A stretch of DNA of 64,000 nucleotides from Bacillota bacterium (lineage in GTDB: Bacteria; Bacillota; Sulfobacillia; JAJYWN01). The notes under the pieces are model-generated. The model worked only from the letters and a program-made list of their open reading frames with translations. It was not told the origin of the DNA and made no database searches. Positions within the stretch are counted from its first letter, which is position 1. The number at the start of each line of letters is the position of its first letter. A program made the position numbers and the translations under genes. The stretch is from contig JAJYWN010000054.1 of assembly GCA_021791495.1 (NCBI GenBank), forward strand, positions 38,646 through 102,645. The letters run 5' to 3'. This document shows positions 3,430 to 52,156 of the stretch, in pieces.

Positions 3430-4449
3430 ATGCCGACTTCGAAACCATCGCGCCTTCTAAATGCCCCGAACTCCTCAACTACTCCGTCAAGGCTCACGCA
3501 CGGATACCTTGTCGCCATGGCCGGCACGGTCATCCTCTCCACGACGGCCGTCTTCATCCGCTACCTGACTCAAACTTATAGGATTCCCGCGCTGGTGTTG
3601 GCTTGCTGGCGGCTAGGGTTCACCGCCCTAACGGTCCTGGTCGTCTTGGGCCTGGCACGCCCGGGCCTGTTACGCGTGAGACCCAGGGACGTTCACTACC
3701 TACTCCTCTACGGTCTCCTCTTGGCCGTCTTCAACGGCCTCTGGACGCTTTCGGTGGCCCTGAACGGGGCGGCCGTGGCCACGGTGTTGGTCTATTGCTC
3801 GGCCGGGTTCACCGCCCTACTGGGATGGTGGTTTCTTCGGGAGCGCCTGGGCTGGGCGAAGCTACTGGCGGTGGCCCTGTGCCTGGGCGGGGTGATCTTG
3901 GTTTCCGGAGTGGTGGGGGCGGCCGACTGGCGCTCCGGACTTCCCGGCATCTCCCTCGGGACGCTCTCGGGGCTGGGGTACGCCGGCTACAGCCTCATGG
4001 GAAGGTCGGCCTCGCAACGTGGCCTAAACCCTTGGACCACCCTGTTCTACACCTTCGGTTTCGCCGCCCTGTTCATGCTCATGTTCAACCTGACGCCCGC
4101 CCTGTCCGCCTTCGGCGGGGCGGCGCGCTCGGCCGACCTCCTCTGGCTGGGCAAGGCTTGGGTCGGCTGGGGGATGCTCTTCCTCCTGGCCGCCGGGCCC
4201 ACCGTGGCCGGGTTCGGGCTGTATAACGTCTCCCTTGTCTACCTTCCTTCCAGCGTGGCGAACCTGGTGGCCACCATGGAACCCGCCTACACGGCCGTCA
4301 TTGCCTACTTCCTACTGGGTGAGCGAATGGGGGCGATTCAGGTCCTTGGAGGGGTGGTTATCCTCGCCGGAGTGGTGTTCTTGCGACTCTACGAGGGCCG
4401 CTCAGCCGGTAACGGCCGGACTCCCGGCGGATTGCGGGAGCCAGTCTGA
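3430..4449 (+). CDS. DMT-superfamily exporter with two EamA domains
   Basis: The protein of about 340 residues has ten hydrophobic segments in two EamA repeats, each ending in the typical pattern of a conserved Pro/Glu-containing helix (MEPAYTAVIAYFLLGERMG near the C-terminus). DMT exporters of this type release amino acids or other small metabolites. The frame is open from 3268, but that part overlaps the divergent oxidase gene and is polar; ATG 3430 or ATG 3517 is the likely start. It is divergent from the oxidase, which suggests the exporter may handle the same compounds. Substrate is not readable. Confidence 0.82.
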   Translation: MPTSKPSRLLNAPNSSTTPSRLTHGYLVAMAGTVILSTTAVFIRYLTQTYRIPALVLACWRLGFTALTVLVVLGLARPGLLRVRPRDVHYLLLYGLLLAVFNGLWTLSVALNGAAVATVLVYCSAGFTALLGWWFLRERLGWAKLLAVALCLGGVILVSGVVGAADWRSGLPGISLGTLSGLGYAGYSLMGRSASQRGLNPWTTLFYTFGFAALFMLMFNLTPALSAFGGAARSADLLWLGKAWVGWGMLFLLAAGPTVAGFGLYNVSLVYLPSSVANLVATMEPAYTAVIAYFLLGERMGAIQVLGGVVILAGVVFLRLYEGRSAGNGRTPGGLREPV

Positions 4450-4569
4450 GCCCCTGGGCGCCATCGACCACTTTTTTCGAGAGTGGAACTGGGTATGGTC
4501 GTCGTGAGTCCACTTTCTTCGGCCGGTCGGGAGGGGCATTGGCGTCGTGGACTGGGCAGGTCGAGATGT

Positions 4570-5061
4570 CTACATAACCAGGGAGCCCTGCGCTGGTGCC
4601 AAGCTCTTCCTCAGACAGAGCACGGGGTATTCCCTATCCCTCCAAGTGTCCGTGGATTCCTTGAAGGCGGTGAACCCACATTTCTCATAAAGGCCGAGCG
4701 CGGGACGGTTGTCGGGCTCTACCATCAGAGCCAATTGGGCGAAGCCGCGACCCGAGGCCAGGGCTTCGACCTTCTTCACCAGTGACCGCCCCACCCCCCG
4801 TCGCCTGTGGTCGGGCCGTACCTCCAGCGCTTGGAGGTAGGCGATGGTACGACCGTCACCAAGCTCCGGATCGTCGTGGGAGAGCACGAACTGGACCGTC
4901 CCGATGATCTCGGGGCCATCGACGGCCAAGAGGATGATGCGTCTCCTCGCCAAATGCTCTTCAAACTCGAAGCCGATTACCCCGTCCGTGTAGTTGTCGC
5001 CGCCCCGCCAGTTCCGAAAGGCGAGCCAGTCGGCAGGAGTCATCGTCCGGATTTCAGTCAT
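4570..5061 (-). CDS. GNAT-family N-acetyltransferase
   Basis: The 163-residue product fits a single GNAT domain. The acetyl-CoA-binding motif A is visible as EVRPDHRRRGVGRSLVKKVE (Q/RxxGxG/A type), followed by a C-terminal NRPALGLYEKCGF motif. ATG 5061 is preferred to the TTG at 5106, which would run into the upstream amidohydrolase stop codon. The gap to that gene is 41 bases, so the two are probably co-transcribed. Substrate is unknown; amino groups of small molecules are typical. Confidence 0.85.
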   Translation of the reverse strand: MTEIRTMTPADWLAFRNWRGGDNYTDGVIGFEFEEHLARRRIILLAVDGPEIIGTVQFVLSHDDPELGDGRTIAYLQALEVRPDHRRRGVGRSLVKKVEALASGRGFAQLALMVEPDNRPALGLYEKCGFTAFKESTDTWRDREYPVLCLRKSLAPAQGSLVM

Positions 5062-5102
5062 AGCGCATAGCGGCGCCCCCAGGAGCCGCGGTGAAACCGT
5101 CT

Positions 5103-6341
5103 TCAATCCTGGCGGTACACCTTCCCCGACTTCATCACGAAGCGTACACCCGTCTTCAGCAAGGTGATGTCATCCAGCGGGTTACCGGCGATGGCGATGA
5201 TGTCGGCCACTTTGCCCTTGGCCACCGTTCCGTAGTCTTTCTCCCAACCGATGCACTCGGCGCCGCCCAAGGTCACGGCGCGGATGGCGTCGCGCGTGCT
5301 CATCCCCATCTTCACCATGGTGATGGGCTCGTCGGCGTTATCGCCGTGGGCGCGCAGCGGCGGTCCGAAGTAATCGGTGCCAGCGGCCATCTTGACGCCG
5401 GCCTCGTAAGCTTTCGGGAAACTGACCTCCATGGCGGCGATGCACTCGGGCTGCTTCTTCCGGCGCCAGGGCGGGAGGTCCGCCGGCCGCTCCATCCCCT
5501 TCCGGAAAACCTCGATCAGGGCGATGGTGGGGACGAAGTAGGTGCCGTGCTCCAGCATGAGGTCGATGGTTTCATTATCAAGGAAATACCCATGCTCCAC
5601 GGTGTCGACACCGGCGCGGATGGCGTTCTTGATGCCCGGCGCACCCTGGGCGTGGGTAGCGACACGCCGCCCGGCCCGGTGGGCCTCCTCGGTAATGGCC
5701 TGGATTTCGGGGATGGTGTAGTGCTCGTCCAGCGGGTGGTCCTTCTCCGACCCCACACCGCCGCTGGTGCAGATCTTGATGAAGTCGGCGCCCGAACGCA
5801 ACACTTCTCGGGCGGCGCGACGACACTCGTCGGGACCGTCGGCGATGCGACCGCCGGCATTCGGGTCGGCCTTGACCTGTTCGACCGGCAGGAAGTGCAC
5901 GTCGGCGTGCCCGCCGGTCTGGGTGATGACTTTGCCCGAGGCCCAGATGTGCGGGCCGACCAGGATGCCCTCCTTTTCGGCGCGCGCCAGCGAAAGGCCG
6001 ATGGTGCTGCCGCAGTCGCGCGTCGAGGTAAACCCGGCCATGAGCATCTTCCGGCAGTCTTCCGCCGCCCGCAGCACCAGGAGGTCGTGGGGCGGGACTA
6101 TCGACTCGGCCGGCCCCATGCCGCGCACGCCGAAGAGGTGTACGTGGGCGTCGCACATGCCGGGCATCAAGGTCTTGTCACCGAGGTCGACCACGGTCCC
6201 ATCCACCTCGCCGGCCAGGGGGCCCCTGGTCACGTCGGTGATGCGGTCGTCTTCCACCACTATTACGGGATTGCGGACCGGGTCCGCCCCGCTGCCATCC
6301 AGGAGTAGCGCTGCTTTGATGAAGGTCTTGCCTGGTGCCAT
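5103..6341 (-). CDS. Metal-dependent amidohydrolase, imidazolonepropionase/Xaa-Pro-dipeptidase-like
   Basis: This 412-residue enzyme belongs to the amidohydrolase superfamily branch that includes imidazolonepropionase-like and Sgx9260-type peptidases (dipeptide carboxylases/prolidases). The metal site is intact: HxH in CDAHVHLFG, a likely carbamylated Lys in DFIKICTSGG, then THAQG, VEHGYFL and the final Asp in AAGTDYFGP. ATG 6341 is chosen because AAAGGA sits eight bases upstream, while the ATG at 6350 overlaps that SD. It sits between a TIM-barrel lipoprotein gene (41-base gap upstream) and a GNAT gene. It likely hydrolyses an N-acyl amino acid, dipeptide or cyclic amide. Confidence 0.87.
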   Translation of the reverse strand: MAPGKTFIKAALLLDGSGADPVRNPVIVVEDDRITDVTRGPLAGEVDGTVVDLGDKTLMPGMCDAHVHLFGVRGMGPAESIVPPHDLLVLRAAEDCRKMLMAGFTSTRDCGSTIGLSLARAEKEGILVGPHIWASGKVITQTGGHADVHFLPVEQVKADPNAGGRIADGPDECRRAAREVLRSGADFIKICTSGGVGSEKDHPLDEHYTIPEIQAITEEAHRAGRRVATHAQGAPGIKNAIRAGVDTVEHGYFLDNETIDLMLEHGTYFVPTIALIEVFRKGMERPADLPPWRRKKQPECIAAMEVSFPKAYEAGVKMAAGTDYFGPPLRAHGDNADEPITMVKMGMSTRDAIRAVTLGGAECIGWEKDYGTVAKGKVADIIAIAGNPLDDITLLKTGVRFVMKSGKVYRQD

Positions 6342-6382
6342 GTGGGTCATCCTTTCTGGATACAGTCGCTAACCATTTCCTT

Positions 6383-7477
6383 CTATTTAGTCTCGATCCA
6401 TGCCCTCCAGCCGGCCTTGGCGCCGCCGTCAGTACTGCGACGGAGCCCCATGCTGGCGAATGGCACTGCCACAGCTTGGTCGAACATGAAAGACCAGATC
6501 TCCAGTTCGGGGTTCACCGGCGCGGCCAGTTGGAAGAAGCGGGTTATGAATTCCGCTTGCTCCGCTTCGCTACTCTCCCACCCTGCCGGTGATGTCGCCG
6601 TATGCCAGCCGATCTCCGTGAAGGCGATGGGTTTCGCGGTGACGTGCTTCTGGATCTCGGAGTAGTAGTCGGCCGGGATATCCGCCGGACTCTTGTAGAT
6701 AAGCCCCGGGTAGGTGGTGAAGGCGACCAGATCGGCCTTGGGGAAGCGGTCGAGCAAGGCCCACTGCGCCTTGGCCGGGTCATTGGCGCCGCCGAACAGG
6801 CCACCGCCGAGCCCCTTCATCTTCTCAAGGTTGAAGATGGTGAAGACTCGGGTGTCCGGAGAAGCAGCCTTGACCGCATCGTACATCTGGTCGTAGAACT
6901 TGACGAAGGAGTCGAAATCGGACGGGCTTCTCTCGTAGAGGACGTTCACCTCGATACCAAGCCCGAGATACCTGGGCTTATTCTTTTGGACGAAGGCCAC
7001 CGCGCCGTCCCGATAGCTTCTCTGCGTGGAGGTGTCGAGAGGGCGCAGAAGCTTGCCAACGGACTGGCTGAAGAACTGGAGTTCCAACACGGGAGTCAGC
7101 TTGGCACCGGCCGCCAGGGAAACGGTCACGGCCGGCCCTCCCTTTTCCCCGGCGATTTCGTTCCAGTCACCGGCCCAGCTGAGGGCTCCGCCCATCTGGG
7201 CGGCGAGGCCCGGGAATTCCTTGAAGTCATCGGCGCCGAAACTCCGCGGAGAGAGAGTCATGCCCCGCACGGTCTTGGTGCCGCCGGTTGTCGCCGGGGG
7301 ATTGGAACCCACCGGTGGGCCGGCTGCCCCGCCCGCGCTCCCTGCCGACGGGCCCGTGTTGGCCTGCTTCGGTTTGGCCGCCTGGCAGCCGGAAGCCACC
7401 GTAACCATCAAAACCAGGCAGACCAGAAGGCCCACAGCCATCACCGCGGACCGGACACGTCGGAGGACAAGGATCAT
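6383..7477 (-). CDS. Lipoprotein with glycoside-hydrolase-like TIM barrel
   Basis: The 364-residue protein starts with a lipoprotein signal: basic residues, a hydrophobic stretch and a lipobox VASGC at about residues 26-30, followed by a Gly/Ala/Pro-rich linker. The rest looks like a clan-A glycosidase barrel. Two glutamates sit at strand ends as expected for acid/base and nucleophile (LGLGIEVNVL and PIAFTEIGWH), resembling GH53-type endo-galactanases, though similarity is weak by eye. The start at 7477 is favoured because the longer frame adds a polar 60-residue tail before the signal. It would sit on the outer face of the membrane. Sugar substrate is unknown. Confidence 0.7.
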   Translation of the reverse strand: MILVLRRVRSAVMAVGLLVCLVLMVTVASGCQAAKPKQANTGPSAGSAGGAAGPPVGSNPPATTGGTKTVRGMTLSPRSFGADDFKEFPGLAAQMGGALSWAGDWNEIAGEKGGPAVTVSLAAGAKLTPVLELQFFSQSVGKLLRPLDTSTQRSYRDGAVAFVQKNKPRYLGLGIEVNVLYERSPSDFDSFVKFYDQMYDAVKAASPDTRVFTIFNLEKMKGLGGGLFGGANDPAKAQWALLDRFPKADLVAFTTYPGLIYKSPADIPADYYSEIQKHVTAKPIAFTEIGWHTATSPAGWESSEAEQAEFITRFFQLAAPVNPELEIWSFMFDQAVAVPFASMGLRRSTDGGAKAGWRAWIETK

Positions 7478-44419: not shown

Positions 44420-44660
44420 GGGACCGTGTTCGCCTCCTCGCCGTCTCTTAGGTGACTTGGGAGGCTGCACAGGCCTCCTTTCTGCTCGCCCTTCCCGCCG
44501 TTTCGGGCCGCCCGCCTATGCCCCTTCCGCCTGCGCCGTCGTACCCTAAATGACCGCGTTTCAGCGAGGGAGGCTCGAAGCACATGGCCGCACATTTCGC
44601 CTGCACAAAGTCCGCAAACCTCGGCTCTCTCACAGCCGCGGCGACAGGGGAGGATGACTT

Positions 44661-46073
44661 ATGGCCCCTGCCATCCTCTACCTCAGCCAAATCGTCGGCA
44701 AGCCCGTCTACGATCCTGAAAACCGTCCTCTCGGTCTCCTGGATGAACTGGTAGTCCGCCTGGGAGGCCCGTTCCCGCCCGTCACCGGGCTGGCGGTTCG
44801 CCTCGGTGGTATCGGTAAGTCCGTGGCTTCGCGGGCGACCTTCCTGCATTGGGCGGACGTCGCCGCCGTCTCGGCCGACGGCATCCGCCTGTCCACCGCC
44901 CGCGTCAACGTGGCCCCCTTCCACCGGCGCCAGGGTGAGATACTGCTGCAGGAGGACCTCCTCGACCAGCAGGTAATGGACACCCACGGCCGCAAGCTGG
45001 TGCGGGTAAACGACGTCCAACTGGTGGCCTTCAACCCGTCCGGCAGCGACCTTCGACTCGCCGGTATCGACGTGGGCCTGCGCGGACTCTTGCGGCGTTT
45101 GGAAGCCGAACGTCTCTGTCGCTGGTTGACTTCCCATACCTCCTTGGACATCCCCGACCGGGTCGTGCCCTGGGAGGAGATCGGTCCCCTCGCGGTGGGC
45201 GGGCCGGAGGCCGAAGGTGAGGCTGGCACGGGACCGGGCGCGGGATTAGGTGCGGGACCGGGTACTGGCCCAGGAGCGGGGCCGAGAGCCAAGCCTGGCG
45301 GTGGCATGCATCTGGCTCACGAGAAACTGGCTGTTCTGCACCCCGCGGACGTTGCCGACATGGTGGCGCAGATGTCCGCGCCGGAGCGCGTCGCGGTTAT
45401 CGGCTCCATGGACGCGGAGAAAGCCGCCGAGGCCTTGGGCGAGTTGGACCCCGAGATGTCCGCCGATGTGCTGGAAGATCTGCCGACGGAGTCCGCCGCG
45501 GAGATCCTGGCGGAGCTGCCCCCGGACGAGGCCGCCGATGCCCTGGCTGAACTGCCCAGCGAGAAGGCGGACGAGCTCTTGGACACTCTGGATGCCAAGG
45601 ACGCCGCGGCCGTGCGTCACCTGATGTCCTTCGACGAGGACGAGGCCGGCGGCATGATGACCACAGAGTATGTGGCCCTCCCGGGTGACCTGACGGCACA
45701 GCAGACCATCGACCGCTTGCGCCGGCTGGCGCCACCGGCCGAGGAGATCCACTACGTTTACGTTGTGGACAGTCGCAGTACGCTCATCGGGATACTGCCC
45801 TTACGAGACCTTATTGTGTCGCCGCCCGACACGAAGCTCTCCGCCATCGTTGCCGGCATCGCCGGTGGCGCCGGCGGTCCTGGTGAAGTCGTTCACATCA
45901 CGGCCCAGGCTCCCAAGGACGAAGTTATCCGCACCATCGACAAGTACAACCTTCTGGCCCTTCCCGTGACCGATGATTCTGGGCGGCTCATCGGCGTCAT
46001 CACCGTTGACGACGCTCTCGCGGCGGCGCTGCCCCCCGAGCCCGGCCGCTGGTTGCGGGGGGTGGTCCGATGA
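44661..46073 (+). CDS. Soluble MgtE-N/CBS-domain protein
   Basis: ATG 44661 has GGGGAGG seven bases upstream. The 470-residue protein has an N-terminal region with two PRC-barrel-like segments (LSQIVGKPVYDPENRPLGLLDEL), a Gly/Pro/Ala linker (about 180-215), an MgtE intracellular N-domain of short helical repeats (DVADMVAQMSAPERVAVI to DAAAVRHLMSFDEDEAGGMMT) and a CBS pair. It lacks the MgtE membrane channel. In MgtE these parts bind Mg2+ and gate the pore. Here the next gene, overlapping by four bases, encodes an NRAMP-type transporter, so this may be its Mg-sensing regulatory subunit. Confidence 0.88.
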   Translation: MAPAILYLSQIVGKPVYDPENRPLGLLDELVVRLGGPFPPVTGLAVRLGGIGKSVASRATFLHWADVAAVSADGIRLSTARVNVAPFHRRQGEILLQEDLLDQQVMDTHGRKLVRVNDVQLVAFNPSGSDLRLAGIDVGLRGLLRRLEAERLCRWLTSHTSLDIPDRVVPWEEIGPLAVGGPEAEGEAGTGPGAGLGAGPGTGPGAGPRAKPGGGMHLAHEKLAVLHPADVADMVAQMSAPERVAVIGSMDAEKAAEALGELDPEMSADVLEDLPTESAAEILAELPPDEAADALAELPSEKADELLDTLDAKDAAAVRHLMSFDEDEAGGMMTTEYVALPGDLTAQQTIDRLRRLAPPAEEIHYVYVVDSRSTLIGILPLRDLIVSPPDTKLSAIVAGIAGGAGGPGEVVHITAQAPKDEVIRTIDKYNLLALPVTDDSGRLIGVITVDDALAAALPPEPGRWLRGVVR

Positions 46074-47365
46074 CGACCAAGCTTGGAACCAAGGTCACCC
46101 CGTTCTCCACCCGTCTAGCCAATTGGCGGCGCAGCCTCGGGCTGGCCTTGGCCATCATCGGTCCCGGAATCATCACCGCTAACGCCGATAATGACGCCGG
46201 GGGCATCAGCACATACTCCGTGGCCGGTGCCCGGTACGGCTATTCGCTCCTATGGATGCTGGTGCTTATCACTTTCAGCCTGGCCGTCACCCAAGAGATG
46301 GGAGCCCGGATGGGGGCAGCCACGGGCAAGGGTCTGGCGGCGCTGATTCGCGAGCGGTATGGCGTGAAATGGACCTTCTTCGCCATGGTCTGCACCCTGG
46401 TGGCGAACCTGGCCACAACAGTGGCCGAGTTCGCGGGCATCGCCGCGGCGGGGGAACTCTTCGGAGTGCCGCGGTGGCTCTCCGTACCCTTGGCGGCGGC
46501 TCTGGTGTGGATTCTGGTCGTCAAGTGGTCCTACCGGTCCGTGGAGCGTGTCTTCCTCATCCTTTCGGCCGTCTACATCGTCTACCCGCTATCGGGGCTG
46601 GTCGTGGGCGCGCCGTGGGGCGAGGTCTTTCGGAACATGGTGGTGCCCAGCTTCCACCTGGATGCCGCGTACATCATGGTCTTCATCGCCACTGTGGGAA
46701 CGACTATTACGCCGTGGGGCCAGTTCTTCATCCAGGCCTACGTGGTGGATAAGGGCATCGGGCCGCGGGAGTACAAGGCGACCCGGGTCGACGTTCTGGT
46801 CGGGGCCTTCGTCACCGACTTCATGTCTTTCTTCATGATCGTCGCCACCGCCTCGACCTTGCATGTGCGCGGCATCCAGATCACTGGTGCGGCCGAGGCG
46901 GCCATCGCGCTGGAGCCCCTGGCCGGCTCGATGGCGCGGATCCTGTTCGGAATCGGGTTGGCCAACGCCTCGCTGCTGGGGGCGTCCATCCTGCCGCTGG
47001 CTACGGCGTACACGGTGTGTGAGGCCTTCGGGTGGGAGGCGGGACTCGACCGGTCGCGACGGGAAGCGCCCATCTTCCACGGGCTGTATGCCTTCGCGGT
47101 CCTCTTCGGCGCGGCGGTGGCCCTCATTCCGCACCTGCCTCTCGTTCCCGTCATGCTGTTATCGCAGGACGTGAACGGGATTCTGCTGGCCGTGGTCCTG
47201 ATCTTCGCCATCCGCATCGCCAGCGACCGGCGGGTCATGGGCGGACTGGCGAACGGACGGGTAGGTAACGGTGTGGCCTGGGCTACGGCGGTGGGCCTCA
47301 TCGTCTTGACCGTCCTGCTCCTGGGCTCATCCGTGGCGCCGCTGTTCGGTGTGAGGCTGGGATGA
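46070..47365 (+). CDS. NRAMP-superfamily transporter with non-canonical metal site (possible Mg2+ type)
   Basis: The 431-residue protein has about eleven membrane helices and the NRAMP layout, but both metal motifs differ. The TM1 DPGN motif reads DAGG (D42-G45 in ADNDAGGI) and the TM6 MPH motif reads TPW (T214-W216 in TTITPWGQFF). Loss of the soft Met ligand is a feature described for NRAMP-related magnesium transporters. It overlaps the MgtE-N/CBS gene by four bases, which fits Mg2+ transport under Mg control. Manganese or iron transport remains possible. Confidence 0.88.
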   Translation: MTTKLGTKVTPFSTRLANWRRSLGLALAIIGPGIITANADNDAGGISTYSVAGARYGYSLLWMLVLITFSLAVTQEMGARMGAATGKGLAALIRERYGVKWTFFAMVCTLVANLATTVAEFAGIAAAGELFGVPRWLSVPLAAALVWILVVKWSYRSVERVFLILSAVYIVYPLSGLVVGAPWGEVFRNMVVPSFHLDAAYIMVFIATVGTTITPWGQFFIQAYVVDKGIGPREYKATRVDVLVGAFVTDFMSFFMIVATASTLHVRGIQITGAAEAAIALEPLAGSMARILFGIGLANASLLGASILPLATAYTVCEAFGWEAGLDRSRREAPIFHGLYAFAVLFGAAVALIPHLPLVPVMLLSQDVNGILLAVVLIFAIRIASDRRVMGGLANGRVGNGVAWATAVGLIVLTVLLLGSSVAPLFGVRLG

Positions 47366-48273
47366 CCATGGCGACAGGCGGGGAGGCCACCGGTATGCGC
47401 GGACAAGGGATAAGCGTCGTCGCTCTCGGCACGGCTCAGGACGGCGGCATCCCGCAGGCGGGATGTCAGTGCCCGAACTGCCGTCGGGCACGCCGTAGCT
47501 GGCGGCACGCGGCCAGGCTTCCCGCTTGTCTGGGGCTGATCGATTCCGGGGCCGGGCGGGCGTTCCTGGTGGACGCTACGCCCGGCTTGCCCGAGCAACT
47601 CGAGAGATTGGGGGGGCCGGGCGGTGGTCTGGCCGGTCTAGCCGGAGTGCTCCTCACCCACGCCCACATCGGACACTACACCGGCCTGGTGCACTTCGGG
47701 CGCGAAGTCATGGGCACGCGAGACCTGCCGGTGTGGTGTACTCCGGCCATGGCTGATTTCCTCCGAGAGAATGCCCCCTGGAGCCAGTTGGTGCACTTGG
47801 GAAACGTGGACCTGCGAGCTGAGGCCGTGCCTGGCAAACCTTTCTCGCTGACGGAGCATCTTGCGCTGACGGCTTTCCCTGTCCCCCACCGCAACGAGTT
47901 CGCGGACACGGTCGGCTACCGCATCCAGGGGCCCACGCGGCACCTGCTTTATGTCCCCGATATCGACCGCTGGGAACTGTGGGACCGTGGCCCAGCCGCG
48001 GAAGTGAGCCAGGTCGACCTGGCTATCCTCGACGGCACCTTCTACTCCGCCGATGAACTGAGGTCCCGCGGGCGGGATCCCAGGGAAGTCCCCCACCCAC
48101 CTATCGTTGAGACGATGGACCGTCTTCAAGCTGCGGTCGAAAGTGGCGCCCAGGTCTTCTTCACCCACCTCAATCACACCAACCCCGTTTTGCGGAGGGG
48201 CTCGCGGGAGCGGGCTGCCGTAGAGGGTCGGGGTTTTCACGTCATCGAGGAAGGCGCGGTGTTTATCCTGTAA
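47362..48273 (+). CDS. PqqB/PhnP-like metallo-beta-lactamase-fold protein
   Basis: The 303-residue protein shows a PqqB-like N-terminus (VALGTAQDGGIPQAGCQCPNC, with a Cys cluster for a structural metal), the MBL motif written HAHIGHYTG (Asp of HxHxDH replaced by Gly) and later ligands in VPHRNEFADT and THLNHTNP. PqqB-like proteins act as hydrolases or oxygenases; no other PQQ genes are here. Its ATG overlaps the transporter stop (ATGA), so it is the third gene of the MgtE-N/NRAMP operon. The altered His motif suggests a single metal. Confidence 0.85.
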   Translation: MTMATGGEATGMRGQGISVVALGTAQDGGIPQAGCQCPNCRRARRSWRHAARLPACLGLIDSGAGRAFLVDATPGLPEQLERLGGPGGGLAGLAGVLLTHAHIGHYTGLVHFGREVMGTRDLPVWCTPAMADFLRENAPWSQLVHLGNVDLRAEAVPGKPFSLTEHLALTAFPVPHRNEFADTVGYRIQGPTRHLLYVPDIDRWELWDRGPAAEVSQVDLAILDGTFYSADELRSRGRDPREVPHPPIVETMDRLQAAVESGAQVFFTHLNHTNPVLRRGSRERAAVEGRGFHVIEEGAVFIL

Positions 48274-49819: not shown

Positions 49820-50578
49820 GTGATGAACGGTGGGGCCGACCTGCTTACCGCGTTCTACCTCGTCTGTTTCATTGTCGGGTTCGTTCTGACCCTTCTCTCC
49901 TTCCTCTTGGGAGCGCACCATTTCGGTGACGTGAACGCCCACGTGGACGTGGGGCATGCCGGAGACTTGGACCTTGGTCCCGCCCATGCCGACCTGGGCC
50001 ATGGCGGTGGCGTTTCGGTGGAGGGTGGCGACAGCTCGGCGGGTGACCTTGCGTCGGCCGCCCACGTCTCCCCTTTCAACTTCTCCACCATCATGGCGTT
50101 CATCACGTGGTTCGGCGGCGCCGGGTACATCCTACGAGTCTACAGCGGTCTGGCGGCCTTCCTGGGGCTGCTGGTTGCCTTGCTGGCTGGGCTGTTTGGC
50201 GGATCGGTCGTCTTCTACTATCTGGCCCGGATTCTGATTCCCGGTCAGACCCAAATGGACCCGACCGAGTACTACATGCCCGGGACCATCGCACGGGTCA
50301 CTTCGACCATTCATGGCAGGGGTGCCGGCGAGATCGTCTACAGCCAGGGAGGATACCGCAAGACGGCGGGCGCCCGCAGCGCCACGGGGGAGACCATCCC
50401 TCGTGAGACTGAAGTGGTCATCGTCTCGTACGAGAAAGGCCTGGCTTATGTCCAGTCCTGGGATAGTTACATGAAAAACGGGCCCGCCGACCTCGACTCC
50501 GCCGGATCCACCGGTCCTCCCGGTTCCACCGGCAACGTCGGCGCCACCAACTCCACCGGGGAGCGGACCGGTAGCTAG
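49820..50578 (+). CDS. NfeD-like membrane protein, flotillin partner
   Basis: GTG 49820 (GGAGG six bases upstream) or ATG 49823 starts a protein of about 252 residues. It has three or more membrane helices (TAFYLVCFIVGFVLTLLSFL; FSTIMAFITWFGGAGYILRVY; LAAFLGLLVALLAGLFGGSVVFYYL) with a His/Asp/Gly-rich loop between the first two, and a C-terminal OB-like domain (GTIARVTSTIHGRGAGEIVYSQGG). The layout matches YuaF/NfeD proteins encoded next to flotillins. The last 30 residues form a collagen-like Ser/Thr/Gly/Pro tail. Confidence 0.82.
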   Translation: MMNGGADLLTAFYLVCFIVGFVLTLLSFLLGAHHFGDVNAHVDVGHAGDLDLGPAHADLGHGGGVSVEGGDSSAGDLASAAHVSPFNFSTIMAFITWFGGAGYILRVYSGLAAFLGLLVALLAGLFGGSVVFYYLARILIPGQTQMDPTEYYMPGTIARVTSTIHGRGAGEIVYSQGGYRKTAGARSATGETIPRETEVVIVSYEKGLAYVQSWDSYMKNGPADLDSAGSTGPPGSTGNVGATNSTGERTGS

Positions 50579-50614
50579 GACGCTCGTAGGACGAAGGACG
50601 AAGGAGGAGAACGA

Positions 50615-52156
50615 ATGATACCTGTTTACATCATCGCCGGCCTGATGGTCGTCGGACTGCTGTTCTTGCTCACGCTCATCTCCAGCATGTTTCGAAAGGT
50701 TGGCCCGAACCAGGCCCTGATCATCTACGGCCTGGGTGGCACCCAGATCGTCCAGGGCGGCGGCAAGGTCGTCTGGCCGCTGATCCAGAGCTGCCGCGAG
50801 CTATCCCTCGAGCTGATGTCCTTCGATGTGGCGCCGCAGCAGGACCTGTTTACCATCCAGGGTGTGGCCGTCACTCTTGAGGCCGTCACCCAGATCAAGG
50901 TGAAATCGGACCCCGAGAGCATCCGCACCGCCGCCGAGCAGTTCCTCACGAAGACGGAACAGGAGCGCGAGAACCTCATCCGTCTGGTGATGGAAGGGCA
51001 CCTCCGCGGCATCTGCGGCCAGCTGACCGTGGAACAGATCGTCAAGGAACCGGAAAACGTCGCCGACAAGATGCGCAGCACCTGCGCGGAAGACATGAAC
51101 AAGATGGGGCTGGAGGTCATCTCCTTCACCATCAAGGAAGTGCGGGATAAGAACGACTACATCACCAACATGGGCAAACCGGACGTCGCCCGGATCAAGC
51201 GGCAGGCGGACATTGCCATCGCCGAGGCCGAGCGGGACACCGCGGTGCGCCGCGCGGAAACCACCCTGGAAGCGGCCCGTGCCAAGGCGGCCGCCGACCA
51301 AGAACGGGTCATCGCCGAGTCGGCGTCCAACACACGCCAGGCCGAAGCCGTGCGCGATCTAGACTTGAAAAAGGCCGAATACGCCGCCACCGTCCGGACC
51401 GCCCAGGCCCAGGCCGACAAGGCTTACGACATCCAGGCCAACATCCAGCAGCAGAGGGTCGTGGCCGAACAGGTCCGCATCGAGCGCGTCCAGCGCGAAG
51501 AGCAGGTCCAGGTCCAGGAAGCCGAGATCAAGCGCCGCCAGCGCGAACTGGAGGCCACGGTCCTCCGGGCCGCCGAGGCCGAGAAGCAGCGCATCGAGAC
51601 CCTGGCCGAGGCCGAGAAGGTCCGCCTGACGCGCGAAGCGGAAGGCCGCTCCCAGGCCACGAAACTCCAAGGCCAGGCCGAGGCCGACGTCAACCGCGTC
51701 CGCGGGCAAGCGCAGGCCGACGTCACGCGGCTGCAAGGTAACGCCGAAGCCGACATCATCCTGGCGAAGGGCCAGTCCGAGGCCCGGGCCATGACCGTCC
51801 GCGCCCAGGCCTTCGAGCAGTACAACCAGGCCGCCATCCTCGACAAGCTCCTGTCGGGCTTCCCCGAGGTCGTGCGCGCCATGGCCGAACCCTTGATGAA
51901 CGTCGATAAGATCACCATCGTCTCCACCGATGGCAAGGAGACGGGTGCCAACAAAATCTCGGCCGATATGGCCAAGTACATCGCCCAGGTGCCGGCCCTG
52001 TTCGAGACTCTGGCCGGCGTGAAGGTCGGCGACCTTCTGGCGAAGGTGCCGGCCCTCTCCGGGAAGTTCGAGACGGCCAAGGCGAAGGAAGAGACCGCTG
52101 CCGCAATCGAAACAGCGGAGCCTGCCTCCGAAGGCAAGCCCCGGGATGAAAAGTGA
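50615..52156 (+). CDS. floT: Flotillin family (SPFH) membrane scaffold protein
   Basis: The 513-residue protein starts with one membrane helix (IIAGLMVVGLLFLLTLISSMF), then an SPFH/band 7 domain (about 25-200, IYGLGGTQIVQGGGKVVWPL) and a long Ala/Glu/Arg-rich coiled coil (about 200-400) ending in a C-terminal oligomerisation part. Flotillins gather in membrane microdomains and support membrane fluidity and signalling complexes. The SD is GGAGG before ATG 50615. It follows its NfeD partner by 36 bases and precedes pspA by 18, tying it to envelope stress. Confidence 0.95.
   Translation: MIPVYIIAGLMVVGLLFLLTLISSMFRKVGPNQALIIYGLGGTQIVQGGGKVVWPLIQSCRELSLELMSFDVAPQQDLFTIQGVAVTLEAVTQIKVKSDPESIRTAAEQFLTKTEQERENLIRLVMEGHLRGICGQLTVEQIVKEPENVADKMRSTCAEDMNKMGLEVISFTIKEVRDKNDYITNMGKPDVARIKRQADIAIAEAERDTAVRRAETTLEAARAKAAADQERVIAESASNTRQAEAVRDLDLKKAEYAATVRTAQAQADKAYDIQANIQQQRVVAEQVRIERVQREEQVQVQEAEIKRRQRELEATVLRAAEAEKQRIETLAEAEKVRLTREAEGRSQATKLQGQAEADVNRVRGQAQADVTRLQGNAEADIILAKGQSEARAMTVRAQAFEQYNQAAILDKLLSGFPEVVRAMAEPLMNVDKITIVSTDGKETGANKISADMAKYIAQVPALFETLAGVKVGDLLAKVPALSGKFETAKAKEETAAAIETAEPASEGKPRDEK

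Follow-up and report, generated by a model that had tools for sequence, protein, structure and literature searches.

Two overlapping genes in the window (the whole stretch of 64,000 nucleotides of Bacillota DNA that was analysed) probably form a two-component Mg2+ uptake system, consisting of an NRMT carrier and a gating sensor derived from the cytosolic part of the MgtE channel. Neither the gene pairing nor the binding-site signature of the carrier is new, the former having been published in 2014 (PMC4072509) and the latter in 2022 (PMC8806188). Shin et al. (PMC4072509) described a Mg2+-transporting NRAMP clade, observed that an MgtE-N-like gene lies beside most nrmT genes and proposed feedback regulation; no follow-up work on this partner gene was found in a literature search. 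NRMTs carry Mg2+ without coupling, and no off switch has been demonstrated for them. Should the sensor act as a Mg2+ gate in trans, two small proteins would suffice to test how NRMTs are regulated, and a single sensor module would control two transporters of unrelated fold.

Domain and site composition of the gene pair

The features of both genes are collected in Table 1. Pfam searches of the gene 1 protein returned MgtE_N (E=3.6e-26), CBS in two stretches (4.1e-16) and PRC (4.3e-7), without any match to the MgtE channel domain (PF01769); the initial annotation, which had read an MgtE sensor without its channel, is borne out on this point. The channel domain is missing from the whole genome of the window (97% complete) as well, and the gene 1 sensor therefore has no MgtE channel to serve. 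Because PF01769 is absent from both the protein and the genome, gene 1 was not filed as an MgtE channel. As for the two extra PRC-like segments that had also been announced, the first is found by Pfam; the second has no Pfam match in the window protein, yet it is a conserved block across the sensor family and forms a second beta unit in the model of a relative. It is followed by a variable Gly/Pro linker leading to MgtE_N, and a short basic tail stands after CBS2 where MgtE has its acidic plug helix. Compared with the MgtE channel of Thermus thermophilus (2yvx, 2yvy), gene 1 shares MgtE_N, the CBS pair, D91, D95 and D247, but it lacks the channel domain, the plug helix and D214/D226/D250, it has an added PRC region, and its partner is a separate chain of unrelated fold.

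Table 1. Features of the gene pair (window positions) and related sensor genes in other loci (positions within each locus)
Feature	Position	Strand	Basis
Likely ribosome-binding site GGGGAGG, 7 bases 5' of the gene 1 ATG	44647..44653	+	sequence
Gene 1, MgtE-type sensor PRC-PRC-MgtE_N-CBS pair, 470 aa, without channel domain	44661..46073	+	ORF, Pfam
PRC-barrel domain, gene 1 residues 6-73	44676..44879	+	Pfam PF05239, E=4.3e-7
Second PRC-like segment, gene 1 residues ~89-178; invariant D102, D107, D118, R145, R146	44925..45194	+	family alignment and conservation; beta unit in a relative's model
MgtE_N domain, gene 1 residues 226-327; E257, D289, D293 = Thermus MgtE E59, D91, D95	45336..45641	+	Pfam, alignment
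CBS pair, gene 1 residues 336-456; D451 = D247 (kept); P418, N430, A454 in place of D214, D226, D250	45666..46028	+	Pfam, alignment
Gene 2, NRMT-clade SLC11/NRAMP transporter, presumably of Mg2+ (substrate by clade), 431 aa; start overlaps gene 1 stop by ATGA	46070..47365	+	ORF, Pfam, structure match
Helix-1 metal site DAGG, D42-G45 (DxxG of NRMT)	46193..46204	+	alignment
Helix-6 metal site TTITPW, T211-W216 (TxxT of NRMT; Trp replaces proton-accepting His)	46700..46717	+	alignment
Sensor genes of Coriobacteriia-class genomes with a degenerate MgtE channel domain	L064 4063-5949, L066 4105-5982, L155-L170

The Pfam Nramp domain spans almost all of the gene 2 protein (7e-92), which shares this domain and the SLC11/LeuT fold with canonical Nramp/MntH (Deinococcus, E. 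coli) but differs from it in that the DPGN and A/CxxM motifs are replaced and the helix-6b His has become Trp. Its closest solved structure is EleNRMT of Eggerthella lenta (7qia; E=4.1e-110 over residues 21-420), with a score of 372 bits against 86 bits for the next Nramp structure. The defining motifs of NRMTs are DxxG (helix 1) and TxxA/T (helix 6) (PMC8806188). The four-base overlap of the two reading frames (ATGA at 46070) and the unusual metal motifs DAGG and TPW, both pointed out in the initial annotation, were confirmed, the motifs reading D42-A-G-G45 and T211-T-I-T214-P-W216; DAGG and TTIT agree with DxxG and TxxA/T. W216 occupies the first proton-accepting His position of helix 6b, at which EleNRMT also has Trp. 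On its sequence, gene 2 is a member of the NRMT clade, since EleNRMT is by far its closest match and the protein has the DxxG/TxxT site and Trp for His; from this membership it would be expected to transport Mg2+. No proton coupling was reported for EleNRMT, which was studied without a partner and whose helix 6 reads TTIA versus TTIT in the window (PMC8806188). The second Nramp protein of the window's genome (L001) is canonical, with DPGN and MPH.

Conservation of the pair and of its PRC region

How often the two genes are adjacent elsewhere, a question raised with the initial annotation, was examined in 299 genomes across the window's phylum, using a distance of at most 500 bp between sensor and Nramp gene. 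A sensor was present within this distance of 28/28 NRMTs (window included) and of 0/48 other Nramp proteins, and because of this difference the pairing is considered as far from chance. Sensor and NRMT co-occurred in 27 of the 28 sensor genomes; in the remaining genome the sensor sits at a contig end. These data refute the idea that the two genes are neighbours by chance and functionally unconnected, which has a negligible probability. Among the 31 full sensors of the sample, 28 adjoin an NRMT, one is interrupted by a contig end, and the other two are unlinked, with a complete pair elsewhere in the same genome.

In the wider set of 80 named loci (Chloroflexota, Actinomycetota, Bacillota, Magasanikbacteria and other groups) the sensor is the neighbour in 73, mostly directly upstream of the NRMT gene, with few convergent or downstream arrangements (L007, L072, L077). 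Five of the seven exceptional genomes hold a full sensor elsewhere; no sensor was detected in the NRMT-bearing genomes of L058 and L076. Natural fusions of sensor and NRMT were absent from 113 loci. Sensors unlinked from an NRMT occur in the genomes of L003, L045, L047 and L074, which hold NRMTs too.

Three loci of unusual composition were recorded during this survey. A close relative (L003) has two different NRMT genes next to each other (4004-5239 and 5770-7290) and no adjacent sensor, the sensor being on another contig. A distant NRMT-like Nramp of the window's class (L111 1402-2748, G158:C185; 33% identity, DAGG...TIAP) is found just 3' of an M-box, and its genome has no sensor at the threshold used. 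L116 2131-3432 (G155:C3:4878130-4879431) is a lone PRC-MgtE_N-CBS sensor with its own M-box and no adjacent NRMT; its genome also has two complete pairs.

A profile built from 72 sensors was run on the genes of the phylum sample, and its matches fell into two classes. Thirty genes, together with G124 (in which the PRC part is in a separate frame), matched nearly the whole profile including the PRC region with 464-566 bits; the others matched only from position ~154-191 onwards, with at most 301 bits, and the 20 genes of this second class that were fetched all have a C-terminal part of channel length. The PRC region thus occurs in the sensors that are NRMT partners and is absent from channel-bearing MgtEs. 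Pfam recognises PRC in 67/72 sensors, and the invariant columns of the family comprise, besides the five residues of the second PRC-like segment (D102, D107, D118, R145 and R146), P228, L381, Y429 and G445. The literature search returned no paper linking the PRC-barrel and MgtE.

Relation of the sensor to the MgtE channel

For site mapping, 94 sensors were aligned on Thermus MgtE, for which site and mutant data were taken from PMC5882242, and 20-21 channel-bearing MgtEs of the same phylum served as control. The sensors keep D91 (92/94), D95 (93/94), D247 (92/94) and an acid at the position of E59 (85/94), while D214 (kept in 17/94) and D226 (kept in 18/94) are mostly lost and a short tail, frequently basic, stands where MgtE has its acidic plug helix. 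The control MgtEs keep D214 and E216 (20/20), D226 (16/21), D250 (20/21) and an EEATED-type plug helix. In the window sensor the Mg2+-site residues E59, D91, D95 and D247 are matched by E257, D289, D293 and D451, and the Mg5 residues D226 and D250 are missing (N430, A454). Retention of the residues at the MgtE_N-CBS interface with loss of most of those serving the plug helix and channel is what would be expected if the Mg2+ clamp had been given a new output, although the retention of D91, D95 and D247 may be structural.

A form of the partner that has kept more of MgtE was found in Coriobacteriia, the class of L064, where the sensor occurs in 121/149 genomes, most often as frames ~600-650 aa long that have an additional membrane part at the C terminus. 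Eggerthella lenta, the source of EleNRMT, belongs to this class. In 16/16 examined loci of the class the gene adjoins an NRMT, and an MgtE-like plug helix (EEESAEDL-type) precedes the membrane part. Profile comparison of the membrane part (plug helix excluded) with MgtE channel domains gave a local probability of 96.9% (E=1.9e-10, 174 columns), compared with 0.5% for an unrelated membrane family. The pore Asp (D432) is absent from all 16 of these partners and present in 20/20 control MgtEs. In the MgtE_N-CBS tree a well-supported branch (100/97) separates the channel-bearing MgtEs from all sensors, whether or not these have the membrane part. Judging from its residues and profile, the Coriobacteriia partner of NRMT is likely a pore-dead MgtE with PRC domains, which supports an origin of the sensor from a complete channel. 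Anchored by a dead MgtE channel, this form would offer a direct view of a sensor moving between transporters.

A full scenario can be put forward tentatively, as a possibility that we hold at somewhat less than even odds: MgtE would have been taken apart, an MgtE-like ancestor gaining a PRC docking region and its channel losing the pore Asp (the Coriobacteriia anchor) and, elsewhere, being dropped, which would leave the sensor as a near-obligate trans-acting gate of the NRMTs, an unrelated carrier family, that docks via PRC and not via the plug helix. The PRC region, the split between kept and lost sites and the membrane-anchored partners are unmentioned in PMC4072509.

Proposed mechanism, alternatives and genomic neighbourhood

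In the mechanism proposed for the pair, the NRMT carrier would import Mg2+ down its gradient without proton coupling, with Mn2+ as a side activity; rising cytosolic Mg2+ would fill the sites between MgtE_N and CBS and clamp these domains together; and the sensor, docked on the carrier from the cytosolic side by its N-terminal PRC-type domains, would in its clamped state restrain Mg2+ uptake. We infer both the binding of Mg2+ by gene 1 with closure of the clamp and the inhibition of the carrier as its outcome. A dependence of docking on the PRC region is indicated by prediction only. For this prediction the relative L014 was used, in which both genes are in one frame: reading the stop codon of the sensor as Gly joined sensor, spacer and NRMT into a single chain of 881 residues, and this was folded with 24 naturally paired rows. 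The AlphaFold model of the tethered chain had a mean pLDDT of 86.9 and a pTM of 0.71, against ~0.50 in our own estimate for no arrangement between the parts; after removal of the PRC region (692 residues) pTM was 0.63, for an estimate of ~0.62. Its parts resembled EleNRMT (TM 0.92) and the Mg2+-bound cytosolic domain of MgtE (2yvy, TM 0.86). Sensor and transporter appear to take up a defined mutual arrangement only in the chain that has the PRC region, an indicative result from one relative, with estimated baselines and pTM as the sole measure. The suggestion of the initial annotation that the MgtE sensor was recruited to gate a different transporter stands in that the sensor is stably tied to a carrier of NRAMP fold from the Mg2+ clade, with some of the Mg2+ sites retained; it does not stand as a novelty, the pairing and the feedback idea dating from 2014, and gating itself goes no further than a proposal. 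Transport was obtained without the partner (PMC4072509).

The same study, in which co-expression of the Acidobacterium capsulatum partner gave no extra rescue, named chaperoning as an alternative role. The sensor could accordingly have no gating function and be a separate Mg2+-responsive regulator, a metal buffer or a chaperone, co-expressed as both proteins serve Mg2+ homeostasis, and the NRMT-unlinked sensors described above, one with its own M-box, fit such a role. We regard it as unlikely, considering the near-absolute adjacency to NRMTs only, the confinement of the PRC region to their partners, the membrane-anchored partners of Coriobacteriia and the predicted arrangement, which in the model is lost without the PRC region. 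The CBS pair might instead mainly read nucleotides, i.e. the energy state, with MgtE_N as a scaffold, so that the carrier would be tuned by ATP/ADP/AMP and not by Mg2+. Adenosine compounds are common ligands of CBS pairs. Thermus MgtE binds ATP (PMC5529423), and the equivalents of its Tyr170 and Arg187 are mostly kept in the sensors; the ATP-stacking Phe227, however, is Leu in 90/94 of them (but also in 7/21 control MgtEs), and we consider nucleotide sensing as highly improbable.

The identity of the metal has to be weighed together with the regulatory context of the operon. The NrmT genes of Clostridium acetobutylicum and Acidobacterium capsulatum with their MgtE-like ancillary genes (Ca_c0685/Ca_c3329 in the former; PMC4072509) represent the same gene pair as in the window. 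An M-box Mg2+ riboswitch is present 5' of 20/27 sensor-NRMT operons of the phylum sample; neither an M-box nor another leader was found by Rfam search upstream of the window operon, which differs in this from the published M-box-preceded systems and resembles that of A. capsulatum. The A. capsulatum NrmT, with an MgtE-like neighbour but no M-box, rescued Mn2+ uptake and was proposed to act mainly on Mn2+ and not in high-affinity Mg2+ uptake (PMC4072509). The window pair could likewise handle Mn2+, its sensor then reading Mn2+, and EleNRMT transports Mn2+ as well. This reading is quite improbable in view of the DxxG/TxxT site, which includes the Thr on which EleNRMT depends for Mg2+, of the canonical DPGN/MPH Nramp elsewhere in the genome, and of the M-box that precedes most sister operons; a Mg2+ carrier with a Mg2+ sensor is preferred.

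The window's genome has one CorA and one M-box, the latter elsewhere than at the operon. This sole M-box (77.6 bits; L114 5579-5747, G000:C50:154578-154746, minus strand) is found not at a known Mg2+ transporter but at the beginning of genes that encode an ABC ATPase and an ABC-2-like permease. Directly after the pair, a gene at 47362-48273 of the window overlaps the NRMT stop by four bases and encodes a protein of metallo-beta-lactamase fold (PqqB-like, below the family cut-off); it was rejected as a third component, no homologue being found near the NRMTs of the fetched relatives. Further downstream, at 49820-52156, an NfeD-like membrane protein and a flotillin/SPFH protein were recognised by eye.
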